Source of the DNA: a virus
Length of the DNA stretch: 64,000 nt
IMG/VR virus record: IMGVR_UViG_3300038309_000252
Span: 62,001 to 126,000 of that record
Reading direction: 5' to 3' (one strand)
The position numbers and the translations under genes were made by a program. Shown one piece after another: positions 23,955 through 62,352 of the stretch (position 1 is the first letter of the stretch; each line of letters opens with the position of its first letter). The notes beneath the pieces are model-generated. The model did not search any database. It was not told the origin of the DNA and saw nothing but the letters and a program-made list of their open reading frames with translations.

Positions 23955-24233
23955 ATGGTTATTAAACGATTCAGAAATAAAATCCATAAAGACCACAGAA
24001 TTAATTCTGTGGTCTTTAATTATTTCAATATTAGTTTATTAATAGCTAGTAGTTTTATTGGTGGTGGTTTAGGTTTTATTCTTTATGATAGCACATATTC
24101 AGTTACACATCAAACATTAATTATATCAGGACTATTACTTGGATTTATATTTGGATTAATTATAATTTGTTTTATAATTATATCAGAGTTTATTGAGAAA
24201 TTACAAGTTTTTAAATTTTTACATAAAAAGTAA
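23955..24233 (+). CDS. small membrane protein, two transmembrane segments
   Basis: Two hydrophobic helices, ISLLIASSFIGGGLGFILY and LIISGLLLGFIFGLIIICF, separated by a short loop, with a basic N terminus. No ribosome-binding site is visible before ATG 23955, and a 30-base perfect palindrome lies in codons 12-21. Translation may start elsewhere or the palindrome may be a terminator that the frame happens to cross. Confidence 0.5.
   Translation: MVIKRFRNKIHKDHRINSVVFNYFNISLLIASSFIGGGLGFILYDSTYSVTHQTLIISGLLLGFIFGLIIICFIIISEFIEKLQVFKFLHKK
23988..24017. terminator. 30-base perfect palindrome, terminator-like
   Basis: AAAGACCACAGAATT and its exact reverse complement, followed by AATTATTTC. Rho-independent terminators have this form, but the T run is poor and it sits inside an open frame. 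Confidence 0.5.
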
Positions 24234-46979: not shown

Positions 46980-47018
46980 AGTGTCAATGGATACCTCGAG
47001 GTATCCATTGACACTTTT
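46980..47018 (+). terminator. rho-independent terminator
   Basis: A 16-base stem from AGTGTCAATGGATACC with loop TCGA, then TTTT. It ends the transcript of the preceding gene. Confidence 0.85.
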
Positions 47019-55176: not shown

Positions 55177-56022
55177 ATGTTTAAGGTATCTGAAATATTT
55201 TATTCCTTGCAAGGTGAAGGTTTATATACTGGTACTCCTAGTATCTTTCTAAGACTATATGGATGTAATTTTAGGTGTGCTGGATTTGGAATGCCTAAAG
55301 GTCAATTATCTACAGAAGCAGATGAAATTGCCAAGCATGCTTTAGAATATACTGATATTTCACAAGTACCTCTAGTCAAGACTGGTTGTGATTCCTTTGT
55401 TTCTTGGCATCCTGCATTCAAGCATTTGTCATCTAAAATGACAAATGATGAGATTTGTTCTAAGATTCAAACTTTGTTGCCATATCATCAATGGAATTAT
55501 GAACATCTCATATTTACTGGTGGAGAACCATTATTGATTGGTCTTCAAAAGAGACTAGTTGATTTTCTATTACATGAGTTTAATGGTGGTCTTAATTATA
55601 TTACATTTGAAACCAATGGTACTCAAAGACTAACACAAGAGTTTATGGATTTCCTTTATGATTGGTCTGATCTACGTCTATCAGATGCAATTACTTTTAG
55701 CGTATCTCCAAAACTTTCAAATAGTGGTGAGTCTAAAGAGCAATCAATTCAACCAGAAGTTATAGCTTTGTACCAACAAGTTGGTCAAACTTATCTGAAG
55801 TTTGTAATTGGAACAGAAGAAGATATGAATGAATGTTTGGATGTAATTGAATTGTATAGAGACTTTGGTTTTGAAGGAGATGTGTATGTAATGCCAGTTG
55901 GTGGAGAAGAAACTATGTATAATCTAAATAAATGTGGTGTTGCTAAGCTAGCTTTGAAGCATGGTCTAAAATATAGTGATAGACTCCAAATATCATTATT
56001 CAAAAATAATTGGGGAACATAA
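55177..56022 (+). CDS. queE: 7-carboxy-7-deazaguanine synthase QueE (radical SAM)
   Basis: Turns 6-carboxytetrahydropterin into CDG. QueE marks: FYSLQGEGLYTGTPSIF, LYGCNFRC, FTGGEPLL and VSPKLSNSGE. The iron-sulfur motif is unusual: after CxxxC a 36-residue segment precedes GCDSFVSW, which matches the third Cys and following DTxxxW of normal QueE. 281 residues, longer than usual because of this insertion. Confidence 0.88.
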   Translation: MFKVSEIFYSLQGEGLYTGTPSIFLRLYGCNFRCAGFGMPKGQLSTEADEIAKHALEYTDISQVPLVKTGCDSFVSWHPAFKHLSSKMTNDEICSKIQTLLPYHQWNYEHLIFTGGEPLLIGLQKRLVDFLLHEFNGGLNYITFETNGTQRLTQEFMDFLYDWSDLRLSDAITFSVSPKLSNSGESKEQSIQPEVIALYQQVGQTYLKFVIGTEEDMNECLDVIELYRDFGFEGDVYVMPVGGEETMYNLNKCGVAKLALKHGLKYSDRLQISLFKNNWGT

Positions 56023-56024
56023 AA

Positions 56025-56633
56025 ATGCAAAAATGGTCAATAGATAAGAAGTTTTCATTCTGCTATGGACACAGGGTTTGGTCTCAAGAATTAAAACATA
56101 CATTATGTGAATCACATGATGCAAGACCAAAATGTAGACATTTACATGGGCATGAAGCACATGTAAATGTTTATCTTGAAAGTGATGTTTTAGAAAACGG
56201 AATGGTAACAGATTTTAATCATTTAGGATGGTTAAAAGACTTCTTCAATCAAACCATTGACCACAAATTCATCTTTGATATTAATGATCCAATTATTGAT
56301 TCATTGTTAATTCCTACTTACAGTATCGTTACAAAATCTCAAAGATTAAGTTATAATACAATATTACCAGACAACTTTAGTGATACATTTATATGCAATA
56401 CTTTAGATTTATCCATTGCAAAAAAGAATAAACAAATTAATAGTCCAGAATATGATGTCCTTGAAGGAATTATATTAGTTGATTTTGTTCCAACATCAGA
56501 AAATCTATCCAAATGGATTTATGATATCGTAAATGATAAAATGAAAAGTATTGGTGTCAAAACAACAAAAGTTGAATGGCAAGAAACACCTAATTCCAGA
56601 GCTTCATATTCACATGAAAATAGTTGTACATAA
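56025..56633 (+). CDS. queD: 6-carboxytetrahydropterin synthase QueD
   Basis: T-fold enzyme converting dihydroneopterin triphosphate to 6-carboxytetrahydropterin. Catalytic Cys and zinc His are in FCYGHRVW and KCRHLHGHEAHV; the substrate Glu is in VEWQETPNSRASY. 202 residues, with a mid insertion relative to bacterial QueD (about 120). GGGGAA precedes ATG 56025. Confidence 0.88.
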   Translation: MQKWSIDKKFSFCYGHRVWSQELKHTLCESHDARPKCRHLHGHEAHVNVYLESDVLENGMVTDFNHLGWLKDFFNQTIDHKFIFDINDPIIDSLLIPTYSIVTKSQRLSYNTILPDNFSDTFICNTLDLSIAKKNKQINSPEYDVLEGIILVDFVPTSENLSKWIYDIVNDKMKSIGVKTTKVEWQETPNSRASYSHENSCT

Positions 56634-56635
56634 TC

Positions 56636-57307
56636 TTGAAAGAAAAATCTGATCCTAAATTAGGTGAATTAATTCATGAGTTATTATTAAGAAAAAATAT
56701 TGAAAATCCAACTATAAAAAGTGATATATCACCAGAATTAAAAATTAAACAACTAGAAACTAATTTTACAAATATTTTATCTGATCTTGGACTAGATTTA
56801 ACAAATGATTCATTGTCAGATACATCTTTACGTGTTGCAAAAATGTTTGTTAATGAATTATTTTGGGGACTTGATTATACCAAGTTTCCAAAATGCACTA
56901 CTGTAAAAAATACAATAGATTATAAATCATCTTTTGTCATGGAGCGAAATATCGCTGTTAGATCTACTTGTGAACATCATCTGGTGATTATTGATGGTAG
57001 TGCTTCTCTTGCATATAAACCATATAATAAAACAATTGGACTATCTAAATTAAATAGAATTGTTGAGTTTTTTGCAAAAAGACCACAAATTCAAGAAAGA
57101 TTAACAGAACAAATAGCTGAAACATTATCATATGTTACAGATTCACCTGATGTAGCAGTTTTCATAGATGCTGTGCATTATTGTGTAAAAGCTAGAGGCA
57201 TTCAAGATTCACAATCATCAACAATTACTTTTGCAACTAGAGGTGTGTTTAGTGATTTTAATTCTTCACTAAGGAAAGAATTCCTAGATTTTGCCTCATT
57301 AAAATAA
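56636..57307 (+). CDS. folE: GTP cyclohydrolase I FolE
   Basis: First step to 7-deazaguanine (and folate): GTP to dihydroneopterin triphosphate. The zinc and active-site motif is RSTCEHHLVIIDG, with a second ligand Cys in YCVKARGIQD, and GLSKLNRIVEFFAKRPQIQE is present. No ATG lies before the essential N-terminal helix, so the start is probably TTG 56636, just after the queD stop (TTG 56624 is possible). Confidence 0.88.
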   Translation: MKEKSDPKLGELIHELLLRKNIENPTIKSDISPELKIKQLETNFTNILSDLGLDLTNDSLSDTSLRVAKMFVNELFWGLDYTKFPKCTTVKNTIDYKSSFVMERNIAVRSTCEHHLVIIDGSASLAYKPYNKTIGLSKLNRIVEFFAKRPQIQERLTEQIAETLSYVTDSPDVAVFIDAVHYCVKARGIQDSQSSTITFATRGVFSDFNSSLRKEFLDFASLK

Positions 57308-57316
57308 ATGGAAAGT

Positions 57317-59713
57317 TCAGATATATCTTTTTTGTACATATGATTGATAGCTTGATTCTTGATTTCTTGCGTCTTTTGGTACCACAACAGTTTGATTACT
57401 ATTATTTACATTAGTAGTTGGTGCATTAACTACTGTTGGTGCATTAACAACTGCTGTTTGCCTTTTTTCTGCCTCCATGTTTGCTGCTGATTGGTTATAG
57501 ACATTATTTGCACTAGTTAATGGATTTTGTGGTGGAATACTAATATTTACATTAGGTGATGCTGGAGTTGGAATAATTATTTGTGGTACTGGTAATTGTT
57601 TATATTGTGGAACTACTTGTGGTTGAACATTAACAGAAGGTTGTTGAATTAATGGAGCATTAGTTTCAGGTAAAACTTGTTGATTTGTAGTTGCTTCTAC
57701 ATTAAAACTTTTTTGATTACTTGCATTAATTACTGGTGTACTTACTTGAGATGTATTTGTATCAATATTTGTTGTATTTTGTTGTGTATTGTTCTGATTA
57801 AGTTTTACTGGTGTAATTTTAGTTGGTTGTAAAGATACATCCTTTGGATTTACAGGATTAAACTTAACAGGAGTACTCTTTGGAGTTTCTTCCTTGATTT
57901 GAACTTTAGGTTTTAATGATTCAGTTGGTGGTAATACTGGTGTGATTTTTGGTGGTGGAATAATAACAAGTTGTGATTTTTCTGGGTTTTTATTATCCGG
58001 AACTTTATTAATTGGAACTGCTGGTTCTTCTTTTGGTTTTACAAGTTCTTTTGGTGCTGTTTCAGGTGTCAAAGGAACTAATTTGTGATTTTTATCAACA
58101 ACCATTGGTTGTTGCAATTGATCTACAGGTTTCTGATTAGCTGGAACTTCAGTATCTTTACCTTGTATTAATTCTGCTCCTTGTTCTGCTATATATCCTC
58201 CAGCAGCTTTTCCTGCTTTACCTGTAAAATAACCTAATCCAGCTCCAACTAGTCCACCAACAATTGTTCCAACACCTGGAAAAATCATTGTACCAATAGC
58301 TGCTCCAGCAGCACCAGCTGCTAAAGTACCACCAACCATTCCAACACTTTCACCAACAGCTCGTGCTTTTTGTGTATTTGCCTGATGTTCTGTAATTTGC
58401 CCTGCGGCAAGTTGTTGATTAGCTGCGCTTATACCTTGATATCCTTCTAAAACTCCTTCACCAACAAGTAATGCTGTGCCAGCAACTCCTGCTGCTTTTG
58501 CACCAATTCCAAGAACACGAAGAGCTCTTGCTCCTTTTGATGCAGTTGATAATCCTTCTACAGCAGTTCCTGTTGCTCTTCCTAATCCTTTTGATGCACC
58601 AAATCCTTTACCAGCAATTTGTGTTCCAGCTTCTAATGCAGATGCACCATATGAGGATTTTCCAGCAATAGAGGCAGCTCTTGAAAGACCAGTACCAGCT
58701 CTTCCTGTTCCTCCAGGAATTATTTTAGGGGGTATACCTGGTCGACCAGGTATTGGTCTTGGTATGTTTGGTGGAACACTTGGTGGTACTCTTGGTGGAA
58801 CACTTGGTGGTACTCTTGGTGGAACACTTGGTGGTACTCTTGGTGGTACTTTATGAGCTCCAGTTCTAGGTAGTGGAGTCTCTCCTGGGATAGATGTTCT
58901 TGGTTTTTTAAATCTATCAAAAAGCGATCTTCTTGTTTTTGGACCGCCTCTTTTTTGTTGCCTCTGTAGTCTTTTTTGTTGCCTCTGTAGTCTTTTTTGT
59001 TGCCTCTGTTGTCTTCTTTGCTGACGAGTTTGTCTTGGTTTTCTTGGTGTTCTTCTTGGAAGATTAAATGGAGAACTTGTATCATCATTTTCAGTGTCAG
59101 GGGATTTTTTACTAATTAATTTTAATAGATCAATTATGATATCAGTATTTGCATATATTTTTTTAAGAACAACTGTTTGATCATTAACGAGTTTATTCGC
59201 TTCATTCAATAATTCTTCAGAATCAGCTTTTCTAGCTACTACTTTTCTTTTTCCGAATTGATTATATAATGTTAAATCAGTTTTCTTAGCAACTACTAAT
59301 GATTTTTCTGTATTTTGTTGAATATTTGATAATTTGGTTAATACACTTTGTTTAGAAGCTAATGAAGAAACCCTGTTATCAACATTTGATATGCTAGGTT
59401 TATAAGGTATTAATTTATTTGCAATTATTTTTGCAATATTTTCTAAATCATTATATTGTTTTAAAGTATTGGTATTTTCTGGTGGTTGAGTACCAGGTTG
59501 TAAAGACCTTATATATTCTTTAGAATAAGCATCTAATAAAACATTTTTATTATTTCTTATAGGATTGATTCTTTGCCCAGTATCAACAGTATTGAGTATT
59601 GACTGAGTTTTAAATATAGCAATCAATTCCTTAAATAAAGGAACTAATTCATCAAATGCATTTGACAGACTATTTGATTGCTGCTTTAAAAGTACTGGTG
59701 ATAAATATGACAT
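57317..59713 (-). CDS. large repeat-containing virion protein candidate
   Basis: 798 residues. Order: helical N terminus (about 1-210), an Arg/Gln repeat (RLQRQQK units) and Pro-rich tandem PPRVPPSV units (about 225-330), a Gly/Ala-rich part with glycine-zipper membrane-like helices (VGGTLAAGAAGAAIGTMIF, then VGGLVGAGLGYFTG, about 450-500), and a long Pro/Gln/Asn-rich tail. It lies where a tape measure would, after the frameshift-linked tail chaperone genes. No enzymatic motif. Tape-measure or membrane-channel function is an inference. Confidence 0.6.
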   Translation of the reverse strand: MSYLSPVLLKQQSNSLSNAFDELVPLFKELIAIFKTQSILNTVDTGQRINPIRNNKNVLLDAYSKEYIRSLQPGTQPPENTNTLKQYNDLENIAKIIANKLIPYKPSISNVDNRVSSLASKQSVLTKLSNIQQNTEKSLVVAKKTDLTLYNQFGKRKVVARKADSEELLNEANKLVNDQTVVLKKIYANTDIIIDLLKLISKKSPDTENDDTSSPFNLPRRTPRKPRQTRQQRRQQRQQKRLQRQQKRLQRQQKRGGPKTRRSLFDRFKKPRTSIPGETPLPRTGAHKVPPRVPPSVPPRVPPSVPPRVPPSVPPNIPRPIPGRPGIPPKIIPGGTGRAGTGLSRAASIAGKSSYGASALEAGTQIAGKGFGASKGLGRATGTAVEGLSTASKGARALRVLGIGAKAAGVAGTALLVGEGVLEGYQGISAANQQLAAGQITEHQANTQKARAVGESVGMVGGTLAAGAAGAAIGTMIFPGVGTIVGGLVGAGLGYFTGKAGKAAGGYIAEQGAELIQGKDTEVPANQKPVDQLQQPMVVDKNHKLVPLTPETAPKELVKPKEEPAVPINKVPDNKNPEKSQLVIIPPPKITPVLPPTESLKPKVQIKEETPKSTPVKFNPVNPKDVSLQPTKITPVKLNQNNTQQNTTNIDTNTSQVSTPVINASNQKSFNVEATTNQQVLPETNAPLIQQPSVNVQPQVVPQYKQLPVPQIIIPTPASPNVNISIPPQNPLTSANNVYNQSAANMEAEKRQTAVVNAPTVVNAPTTNVNNSNQTVVVPKDARNQESSYQSYVQKRYI

Positions 59714-59714
59714 G

Positions 59715-59897
59715 TTATTTTCTTTGCTGTTGCTTCTCTTTTTCTTCTTCCAAATATCGAATTAACATTGTTATATAAATCTCTCTTTCAAATGGAATCA
59801 TATTTTCTAAATCTGCCAAAGAATATTTGTGGTATTGCATTAGCGCAAAGTTCATCTTGTAATAGTTGAATAAATCATCATGCGCTAATGCAATTAA
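59715..59897 (-). CDS. -1 frame extension of the gp26-like protein
   Basis: Sixty codons in the -1 frame, continuing LIALAHDDLFNYYK, MNFALMQYHKYSLADLE, NMIPFEREIYITMLIRYLEEE. Reading passes from the gp26-like frame through the run of eight T with no gap, to give a 300-residue fusion. An internal ATG (59855) could also start it independently. The product resembles the T part of G/GT tail assembly chaperones by position and mechanism. Confidence 0.8.
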   Translation of the reverse strand, partial: LIALAHDDLFNYYKMNFALMQYHKYSLADLENMIPFEREIYITMLIRYLEEEKEKQQQRK

Positions 59898-59903
59898 AAA
59901 AAA
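59834..59903 (-). promoter_or_regulatory. programmed -1 ribosomal frameshift signal
   Basis: Slippery heptamer T TTT TTT (59897-59903) in the right phase, directly before the TAA of the zero frame. Two bases later begins a perfect 14-base stem, ATTGCATTAGCGCA (59881-59894) pairing with TGCGCTAATGCAAT (59834-59847), loop 33 bases: a stimulatory structure. Confidence 0.85.
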
Positions 59904-60616
59904 CTTGATAGTCCTTCAATATATTTGTCATGATGCAAATTACATACAGGGCAATCATAAGAAACATCAATTCTGACAGATGGCAAAGTATTAAAAAATA
60001 CAATAATATGTTGAAACTGTGCACTGGTAAGATTTTCTAAAAATGTAATCAATTCTTCTTTTGAAGTATCTTTTGCCCAATATACTTGTTCATCATCATA
60101 GATATAATCAATACAATCAATGATGATATCTAAAGCTAATTGTTGTTCATTTTCTTTTGAAGCTTCAATTTTTTTAAGTACTTCAAACGATGGGTATTTC
60201 ATACAAATACCAACATTATCAAATAATGTAAACTTACTTTGGTGGTTTTCTTGAAATACTACATGTGCTTCTTCAAGATTAACATTAACTGTTGCTCTTG
60301 CTTTTGGATTATCCTTTCCGTGATCTATATCACAAGCAAATAATAAAGTTACAATTTCACCAATTGATTTTGCCCTAATTTGCAAAAACATATATTCGAT
60401 ATCAAATGATGCTAACGATTCTAAATTAACTTGTGATTTAGCACAAGATGAAATTGTATCTTTAATAGTATCTAAAATTACATTTACATTTTTAGATTGT
60501 TGAGCTAGCATTAATGCCTTTTCTTCCTTAACTAGAAAAGGTCTATATTTAAATTCTTTCTTTGAAGAAGGAATAGTAATAGTATAAATTGGTAAAACAT
60601 TCTGTGGTAATGTCAT
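59894..60616 (-). CDS. gp26-like baseplate/tail assembly protein
   Basis: 240 residues. N-terminal YTITIPSSKKEFKYRPFLVKEEK, and a C-terminal zinc-ribbon-like end CPVCNLHHDKYIEGLSSFF, which mark the T4 gp26 baseplate family (PF12322-like). A frameshift at its last codons extends it by 60 residues. Overlaps gp16 by four bases. Confidence 0.8.
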   Translation of the reverse strand: MTLPQNVLPIYTITIPSSKKEFKYRPFLVKEEKALMLAQQSKNVNVILDTIKDTISSCAKSQVNLESLASFDIEYMFLQIRAKSIGEIVTLLFACDIDHGKDNPKARATVNVNLEEAHVVFQENHQSKFTLFDNVGICMKYPSFEVLKKIEASKENEQQLALDIIIDCIDYIYDDEQVYWAKDTSKEELITFLENLTSAQFQHIIVFFNTLPSVRIDVSYDCPVCNLHHDKYIEGLSSFF

Positions 60617-61065
60617 TGTATATCCTCATTGTCAGATTGAAGCAAATCATGAATCATTTTATTTAGATTAGAAGTTGGACCAACAAAAATTGCAGTGTTA
60701 GTAACGTTATTTGGTGTTATATTATCTTTAGAATCTTTTGATAATGATTTTACTTTTACAGATAAATCAATCAATTGATGGTTTATATCTGCAATTTGTT
60801 TCATTAGGTTTCCAACTACCTCAAATGCTCTAGGATGTTCTGACTGTTTGGCAATTTCCAAAGCTGCGTCTAGTGCTTCTTGTCCTTGAGCTAGTAATTC
60901 AAAAAGATTTTGTCTTGTTGTGTAATAATCATCATCAATACAATGTTGTAATTCAGGTGATTTACGTAAAGATGGCAATTGCATTGGTTGTTCTTTACTA
61001 GCTTCATTATTTTCAACATTAAATAATTTATCCAATGAATCAATAGTTTTTACTTTGTCTATCAT
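60613..61065 (-). CDS. 16: terminase small subunit gp16
   Basis: 150 residues. DDDYYTTRQNLFELLAQGQ and IAKQSEHPRAFEVVGNLMKQ form the coiled-coil core of T4-type gp16, which recognises and regulates DNA packaging by gp17. The large subunit is outside the window. Confidence 0.88.
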   Translation of the reverse strand: MIDKVKTIDSLDKLFNVENNEASKEQPMQLPSLRKSPELQHCIDDDYYTTRQNLFELLAQGQEALDAALEIAKQSEHPRAFEVVGNLMKQIADINHQLIDLSVKVKSLSKDSKDNITPNNVTNTAIFVGPTSNLNKMIHDLLQSDNEDIQ

Positions 61066-61649
61066 GGTGTAGTGCCTGAAGTAGTTTGTGATGCTGATGT
61101 ACTTGTTGAACTAGAAGATGATGTTCCAGGAGAAGAAGTCCAATATTTATATTGCCATGCCACATTAAGTGTTAATATTTCATTACTATCACTTGACAAG
61201 TTTAATTCTCCAATAGATTTTGGATATGCTTCATGAATAGTAATAACTTGTTGTATATTTCCATCTACAGATATTATATTAATAACAAAATCTTTGACAT
61301 AATCATCATAAAACCCAATGCTTTTTGTGATTGGATTTATGATTAAATATAACCAATTTTTGAACATTTCAAATATCGTTAATTGAGCATCCAAATAAAA
61401 ATTTGTTTGTATTGGTTCAAATGTCCTATCATAAGGAAATTCTCTATCTTCACCAATTGTTTTATATGGTGCTGTTGATATATTAAGTCCTGGTATAGAA
61501 ACAGAAGAACAAAATAATGTGGTTAAATGACTTGGATCAGATACAGAATACTCTTTAGATCCTGTTGGAAATGTCAATTCAACAGAATATTTATTTGCTC
61601 TTGCAAGATTTCTTGTTTTAATAGCTGCAATAAAATCTATTAATTCCAT
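61062..61649 (-). CDS. tail tube-fold baseplate protein (gp54/gp19-like)
   Basis: 195 residues: NLARANKYSVELTFPTG, CSSVSIPGLNISTAPYKTIG, YDRTFEPIQTNFYLD, YDDYVKDFVINI and HEAYPKSIGELNLS, the strand order of T4-type tube proteins (gp19, gp54). A Ser/Thr-rich tail follows. Which of the tube paralogues it is cannot be told; with gp48 nearby, the tube initiator gp54 is plausible. Start moved from 61688 to ATG 61649, after the upstream stop. Confidence 0.75.
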   Translation of the reverse strand: MELIDFIAAIKTRNLARANKYSVELTFPTGSKEYSVSDPSHLTTLFCSSVSIPGLNISTAPYKTIGEDREFPYDRTFEPIQTNFYLDAQLTIFEMFKNWLYLIINPITKSIGFYDDYVKDFVINIISVDGNIQQVITIHEAYPKSIGELNLSSDSNEILTLNVAWQYKYWTSSPGTSSSSSTSTSASQTTSGTTP

Positions 61650-61656
61650 AATGGTC

Positions 61657-62352
61657 TCAAAATATTGATTTAACTTTTGACAAAGCACGATTAATAATTG
61701 ATTTTGATTTTCTACTTCTTTTTTTAGATTCTGCCCATACTTCTACTGTTTTAGCTCCATAAAACTTTTCAACAGGTAATAACATTGCTGTTGCCCAGTC
61801 TTCAGAATCGATTGCAAGTAATGGTGTTTGTATTTGTGATGTCAAATATCTATGTACACATGGTTTAGCTGTTCTAAATCTAGACATAGAACTAATCATT
61901 GCCCAACTAAACTTCAATCTTGTATATTGATTGTAATCATTATTTGAACGAAAACTATTCAAATTTGTCAAAAGAAAAACACGCTCTTTATATGGTAAAT
62001 AATGCATATTTAATCCAATAAATCCATTATCTGTTTTTCTAAATGGAAATACTAATGGAAATGCATCCCAATATGGAAGATTTTTTGTTTTAGCATGGTA
62101 TCCAAATAAATACAATTTTCCTGGTGTAATTGATATTTTATGTCTACTAGTACTAGATAAAATTAATGGAATAGCACGTACTTTTGAAAGTTTTTGTATT
62201 TGATCTTGATACCATTTTTTTGATTTCCCAACAGCTTGCCTTAATTCATAAGGACTTTTCTTAAAAATATCTTCATATAAAGAAGGATTTTTAGGAGTTA
62301 CTACTTTTTTAGCGGATGTAGTTTTAGGAATATTTGGTTTAGCTGGTTTCAT
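61657..62352 (-). CDS. conserved T4-like protein, possible DNA end protector gp2
   Basis: 231 residues. A KYEL-type helix start, then ITPGKLYLFGYHAKTKNLPY, WDAFPLVFPFRKTDNGFIGL and NMHYLPYKERVFLL, then a basic C terminus. Similar proteins beside gp4 in marine T4-like phages are often annotated as gp2, the DNA end protector. I cannot confirm that equivalence from sequence alone. Confidence 0.55.
   Translation of the reverse strand: MKPAKPNIPKTTSAKKVVTPKNPSLYEDIFKKSPYELRQAVGKSKKWYQDQIQKLSKVRAIPLILSSTSRHKISITPGKLYLFGYHAKTKNLPYWDAFPLVFPFRKTDNGFIGLNMHYLPYKERVFLLTNLNSFRSNNDYNQYTRLKFSWAMISSMSRFRTAKPCVHRYLTSQIQTPLLAIDSEDWATAMLLPVEKFYGAKTVEVWAESKKRSRKSKSIINRALSKVKSIF

Follow-up and report, generated by a model that had tools for sequence, protein, structure and literature searches.

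A conserved -1 frameshift signal links gp26- and gp51-type reading frames in a probable tail assembly chaperone gene of T4-like phages

Here we describe a locus on the minus strand of an IMG/VR virus record (IMGVR_UViG_3300038309_000252) in which two reading frames of the gp26 and gp51 types meet at a run of thymines. The window that was analysed is a stretch of 64,000 nucleotides, covering positions 62,001 to 126,000 of that record, and all coordinates refer to it. The first frame, at 59894-60616, encodes a protein of 240 residues of the gp26 family (phrog_150), which matches the Pfam family T4_baseplate (PF12322) with E 5.9e-56 and 190 bits against a cut-off of 24.5, and which we interpret as a short tail assembly chaperone (TAC-N, or 'G'). 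Its 3' end reads GGA CTA TCA AGT TTT TTT TAA, where an 8-T run (59903-59896) contains the slippery heptamer T TTT TTT (59903-59897), kept across relatives as T TTT TTN. A slip of one base into the -1 frame after this heptamer would give LIALAHDDLFNYYKMNFALMQYHKYSLADLENMIPFEREIYITMLIRYLEEEKEKQQQRK, followed by TAA at 59717-59715. The -1 frame is open without a gap from the heptamer onwards, and its 60 codons (59718-59897, minus strand) encode a C-terminal domain of the gp51 type, the 'T' part of a presumed long form (TAC-NC); the resulting fusion of 300 residues matches phrog_150 with E 4.5e-76. Two nucleotides past the heptamer begins a putative frameshift stimulator (59834-59894, minus strand), a stem of 14 perfect Watson-Crick pairs between the arms 59894-59881 and 59847-59834 with a 33-nt loop, both arms of which fall within the -1 coding frame. 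A first-pass annotation, made from the sequence alone, had pointed to the slippery run before the stop, to the gap-free 60-codon continuation and to the perfect stem with its two coding arms, and the coordinates of all three are borne out. The window has 70 ORFs that are 120 codons or longer; four of them carry a heptamer of the X XXY YYZ form in their last codons, and only the gp26-family ORF has behind it a -1 extension of at least 50 codons.

The chaperone frames lie immediately upstream of an ORF encoding a tape-measure-like protein of 798 residues (57317-59713, minus strand; phrog_794, E 1.2e-10; phrog_167, E 3.5e-8), whose ATG at 59713 is placed one nucleotide past the -1 frame stop, and a large ORF occupies the tape-measure position in most relatives. 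Part of this protein (58476-58856) consists of tandem repeats of the PPRVPPSVPP and QRRQQRQQKR types. The same gene cluster encodes a tail tube protein (gp19-like; 61062-61688, minus strand; phrog_45, E 1.9e-42), a small terminase subunit, a DNA end protector (gp2-like) and a head closure protein (gp4-like). The small terminase gene (60613-61065, minus strand; PF11053, phrog_445) sits between those for the tail tube and the chaperone, with a stop codon that overlaps the start of the chaperone gene. On the plus strand, at 55177-57307, a Radical SAM protein (QueE-like, its best Pfam match falling under the curated cut-off), a 6-pyruvoyl tetrahydropterin synthase (QueD-like) and a GTP cyclohydrolase I (FolE) are encoded in a row; these correspond to early steps of the 7-deazaguanine (preQ0-type) pathway, which is often tied to phage DNA modification.

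Searches of phage records with the fusion (tblastn) matched 1014 records, mostly from phages of Synechococcus, Salmonella, Vibrio, Escherichia and Aeromonas, the nearest relatives found being about 54% identical; none were found in genome_contigs. The extension by itself matches phrog_634, 'baseplate hub assembly catalyst' (gp51), with E 3.5e-26, and has matches in 673 phage records, among which are the C-termini of full-length gp51 from coliphages and from Acinetobacter phage Acj9. Its treatment in public records is uneven, as two loci show (L056, 4765-4899, and L058, 4715-4898): the annotated start of g51 in S-RSM4 lies about 18 codons inside the domain, and in ACG-2014j the extension is unannotated.

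Profile comparisons relate both T4 proteins to the fused gene. The T4 gp26 family aligns with the G part (hhalign 99.4%, columns 23-240), the gp51 family of T4, Aeromonas phages and Acj9 aligns with almost the full length of the fusion profile (99.2%, columns 16-289, 241 columns), and the two families align with one another (97.2%), T4 gene 26 being a homologue of the short form and gene 51 of the entire fusion. In T4, Acj9 and one Aeromonas phage, 26 and 51 are separate, divergent neighbouring genes. Taken with the homology to both proteins, this arrangement suggests that the same two forms are made in different ways: judged from the sequences, the cyanophage/KVP40-type group appears to rely on a single gene with a frameshift, and the T4 group on two genes, for which a frameshift would be unnecessary. 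A single PF12322 gene was found in the 132.6-kb virus record, which is possibly incomplete and so leaves, strictly speaking, some room for a separate gp51 gene elsewhere.

The slip site is the most constant feature of the locus. Both halves were found in 158 loci, a set in which the window's own locus is counted and some contigs recur, and in 157 of these the T part lies in the -1 frame directly behind T TTT TTN, where N is C (78 loci), T (57), A (21) or G (one). In the exception (L048, 727-1606) the gp26 frame is apparently broken, being interrupted after about 85 residues through either a sequencing error or a broken gene. Dropping loci more than 85% alike left a non-redundant set of 86, in every one of which the P-site codon is TTT, the codon before it is NNT (of seven kinds: AGT, GAT, AAT, TCT, GCT, ACT and GGT) and the A-site codon starts with TT (TTC, TTT, TTA or TTG, for Phe or Leu), with the 0-frame stop following zero to three codons past the slip site. 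The in-phase X XXY YYZ heptamer that characterizes bacterial-type -1 frameshifting is therefore conserved throughout this set (86/86). Given the codon usage of the same genes, the chance of a constant P-site TTT would be about 1e-14 and that of the preceding NNT about 1e-20, values which assume independent loci and, as the loci are not independent, overstate the significance. The amino acids vary around the invariant bases, which argues for selection on the nucleotides themselves. The proposal of a G/GT-like programmed -1 frameshift made in the first-pass annotation is upheld: the extension is the homologous gp51 C-terminus, and the slip site shows no variation. In phage lambda the slippery heptamer is G GGA AAG, unlike T TTT TTT here.

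Downstream of the heptamer, an excess of RNA folding is seen both in this phage, where the 85 nt that follow have a fold z-score of -4.05, and across the family. In a scan of 34 loci with 85-nt windows, the z-score reaches its minimum at the base right after the heptamer (mean -1.33), against means of -0.92 to +0.32 at other offsets. When the 86 loci were compared with their synonymous recodings, the mean z at this same offset was -1.62 (s.e. 0.18), and eight control windows put through the same test gave -0.65 to +0.22. The bases that pair vary by phage: two loci (L002 and L072) have an 8-bp outer stem around a loop of about 60 nt, short hairpins occur in S-ShM2, S-SKS1, S-RSM4 and L038, and long-loop stems in L041, L046, L065 and L114. 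A conserved long-loop stem was considered as a candidate and rejected, as pairing between its 5' zone (0-22) and 3' zone (44-72) was unenriched relative to synonymous recodings (mean z 0.10), and an Rfam scan of the region returned a chance match only. Conservation in related T4-like phages, which the first-pass annotation had put forward as a check on both the T run and the stem, thus holds fully for the former and in part for the latter: a downstream structure is common, and plausibly stimulatory across the family, but the 14-bp stem itself belongs to this phage alone. Perfect inverted repeats of at least 14 bp with loops of up to 60 nt number three in the window, compared with 0.07 expected from dinucleotide shuffles; the two others (23987-24018 and 46980-47015, with loops of 4 and 8 nt) are possibly terminators. 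We lean towards a scenario in which the heptamer is frozen while the stimulatory structure is selected and yet continually reinvented, with each phage pairing different bases within the first 70 nt or so of a coding region, and the 14-bp stem would then represent an extreme case.

Directly observed are the layout of the reading frames, the homology between the extension and gp51, a slip site that does not vary, the surplus of folding downstream and the synteny, and on their strength we consider it very probable that the locus is a G/GT-type tail assembly chaperone of a T4-like phage, made by -1 frameshifting. We infer that ribosomes slip at this site, at a rate such that most would end at the TAA and release the 240-residue short form (gp26, TAC-N), while a minority, aided by the downstream stem, would slip -1 on T TTT TTT to produce the 300-residue long form (TAC-NC), which joins a gp51-type C-terminal domain to the short form. 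If lambda gpG/gpGT is a guide, the short form would coat the tape measure protein encoded by the adjacent gene, and the rarer long form would recruit tail tube subunits. Tail assembly chaperone is a better description than the baseplate gene label given at first pass. In lambda, too, the coding region that directly precedes the tape measure gene gives a short form and, rarely, a form extended in the -1 frame (Levin et al. 1993; Xu et al. 2004, 2013). An AlphaFold2 model of G built from 49 sequences (pLDDT 89, pTM 0.83) matches gp26-family models in BFVD, with a best TM of about 0.8. Searches of the PDB returned no match for G, either with this model at E<=0.001 or by profile, and with them no fold or sequence shared with the lambda and HK97 chaperones; lambda G is therefore cited as a functional analogue and not as a member of the same family.

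Other explanations of the paired frames account less well for these observations. Were gp26 and gp51 two genes, with a small gp51 using its own internal start and the overlap reflecting gene packing, one would have the annotation adopted in the public records of S-RSM4, P-HM1 and KVP40, and the -1 frame of this phage has an ATG as codon 15. However, the first possible start in that frame ranges from codon -48 to codon 32 across relatives and is not conserved, whereas residue conservation in the extension begins at codon 2, with residues upstream of the annotated starts conserved. In 18 of the 86 non-redundant loci no ATG, GTG or TTG occurs before codon 18, so that the extension there is not an independently started gene, and a two-gene arrangement, which we regard as very improbable, would leave the invariant T TTT TTN and the -1 relation of the 157 loci unexplained. 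Transcriptional slippage, in which the fusion mRNA would come from the polymerase and not from ribosomal frameshifting, suits the eight T of this phage but not most relatives, where the run is just six T before a C, A or G. Six T is short for polymerase slippage. We attach hardly any weight to this mechanism, as the phasing N NNT TTT TTN exactly fits tandem tRNA slippage and downstream RNA structure would be unexpected if the polymerase slipped. That the source is a single metagenome-derived virus record might suggest that the frame change is a sequencing error, or that one continuous ORF has decayed into a pseudogene; this is refuted by the frame relation, which recurs at 157 loci across many assemblies and in isolate genomes too, and we give the explanation negligible probability.

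Within the preferred reading of a -1 ribosomal frameshift, the 14-bp stem might still owe its presence to chance or to another role and not act as a stimulator, which we consider unlikely. Its register is unconserved, the closest relatives pairing other bases, and while the folding excess is significant (p<0.05) in 43% of loci, about half have no marked structure. The spacer between heptamer and structure is usually 5-9 nt, and the 2 nt found here bring the stem closer. Because of this short distance and the unconserved register, the stimulatory role is one that we infer. A ribosome on the slip site would melt the outer 5-7 or so pairs of the stem, and the effective barrier would be its G+C-rich inner half (TAGCGCA/TGCGCTA). 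Against an incidental stem, recoding the peptide of the stem region synonymously 20,000 times, with the codon usage of the operon, never gave a stem of even 13 bp, and the folding excess of the family peaks exactly at the stem position.

An earlier survey of T4-like phages reportedly found frameshifting conserved in several groups, with T4 using genes 26 and 51, and its chaperones are said to belong to the same protein families as those described here. As represented by later citations, Vladimirov, Gautam and Davidson (Virology 2022, pmid 34826709) identified the tail assembly chaperone genes of T4-like phages; it is cited for T4-like phages with separate short and fused chaperone genes (PMC10885494) and for the same kind of poly-T -1 frameshift signal in TAC-N genes (PMC12846349). 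By these accounts, the link between gp26/gp51 and chaperone frameshifting, drawn in the first-pass annotation, was published in 2022, and the mechanism set out here had already been proposed for T4-like phages. Relative to those published chaperones, the present phage is a distant member with an unusually perfect stem. In phage Adele (Pakpunavirus, Vandenendeviridae; PMC12846349), which belongs to a different phage family from this T4-like phage, a conserved GTTTTT motif that ends TAC-N is described as the site of a comparable -1 frameshift. The family-wide downstream structure, free of any fixed register, may be new, and is the sole part of this work that we did not trace to earlier studies.

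Together these results give good support to a frameshift signal that is genuine and very widely conserved, if ordinary in kind. In cyanophages, gp51 is only about 20% as long as its non-cyanophage counterparts (PMC3037559), a difference that follows if the short cyanophage-type 'gp51' is, as seems most likely, the frameshifted tail of gp26 and not a free protein. In many public records the two halves are entered as separate genes, or the second half is missing. For T4 gp51, which is essential and of unknown function (PMC3004832), this reading would provide a concrete and testable role as the long form of the chaperone. More broadly, this family of loci offers a good natural set in which stimulatory RNA structures turn over while the slip site stays fixed.
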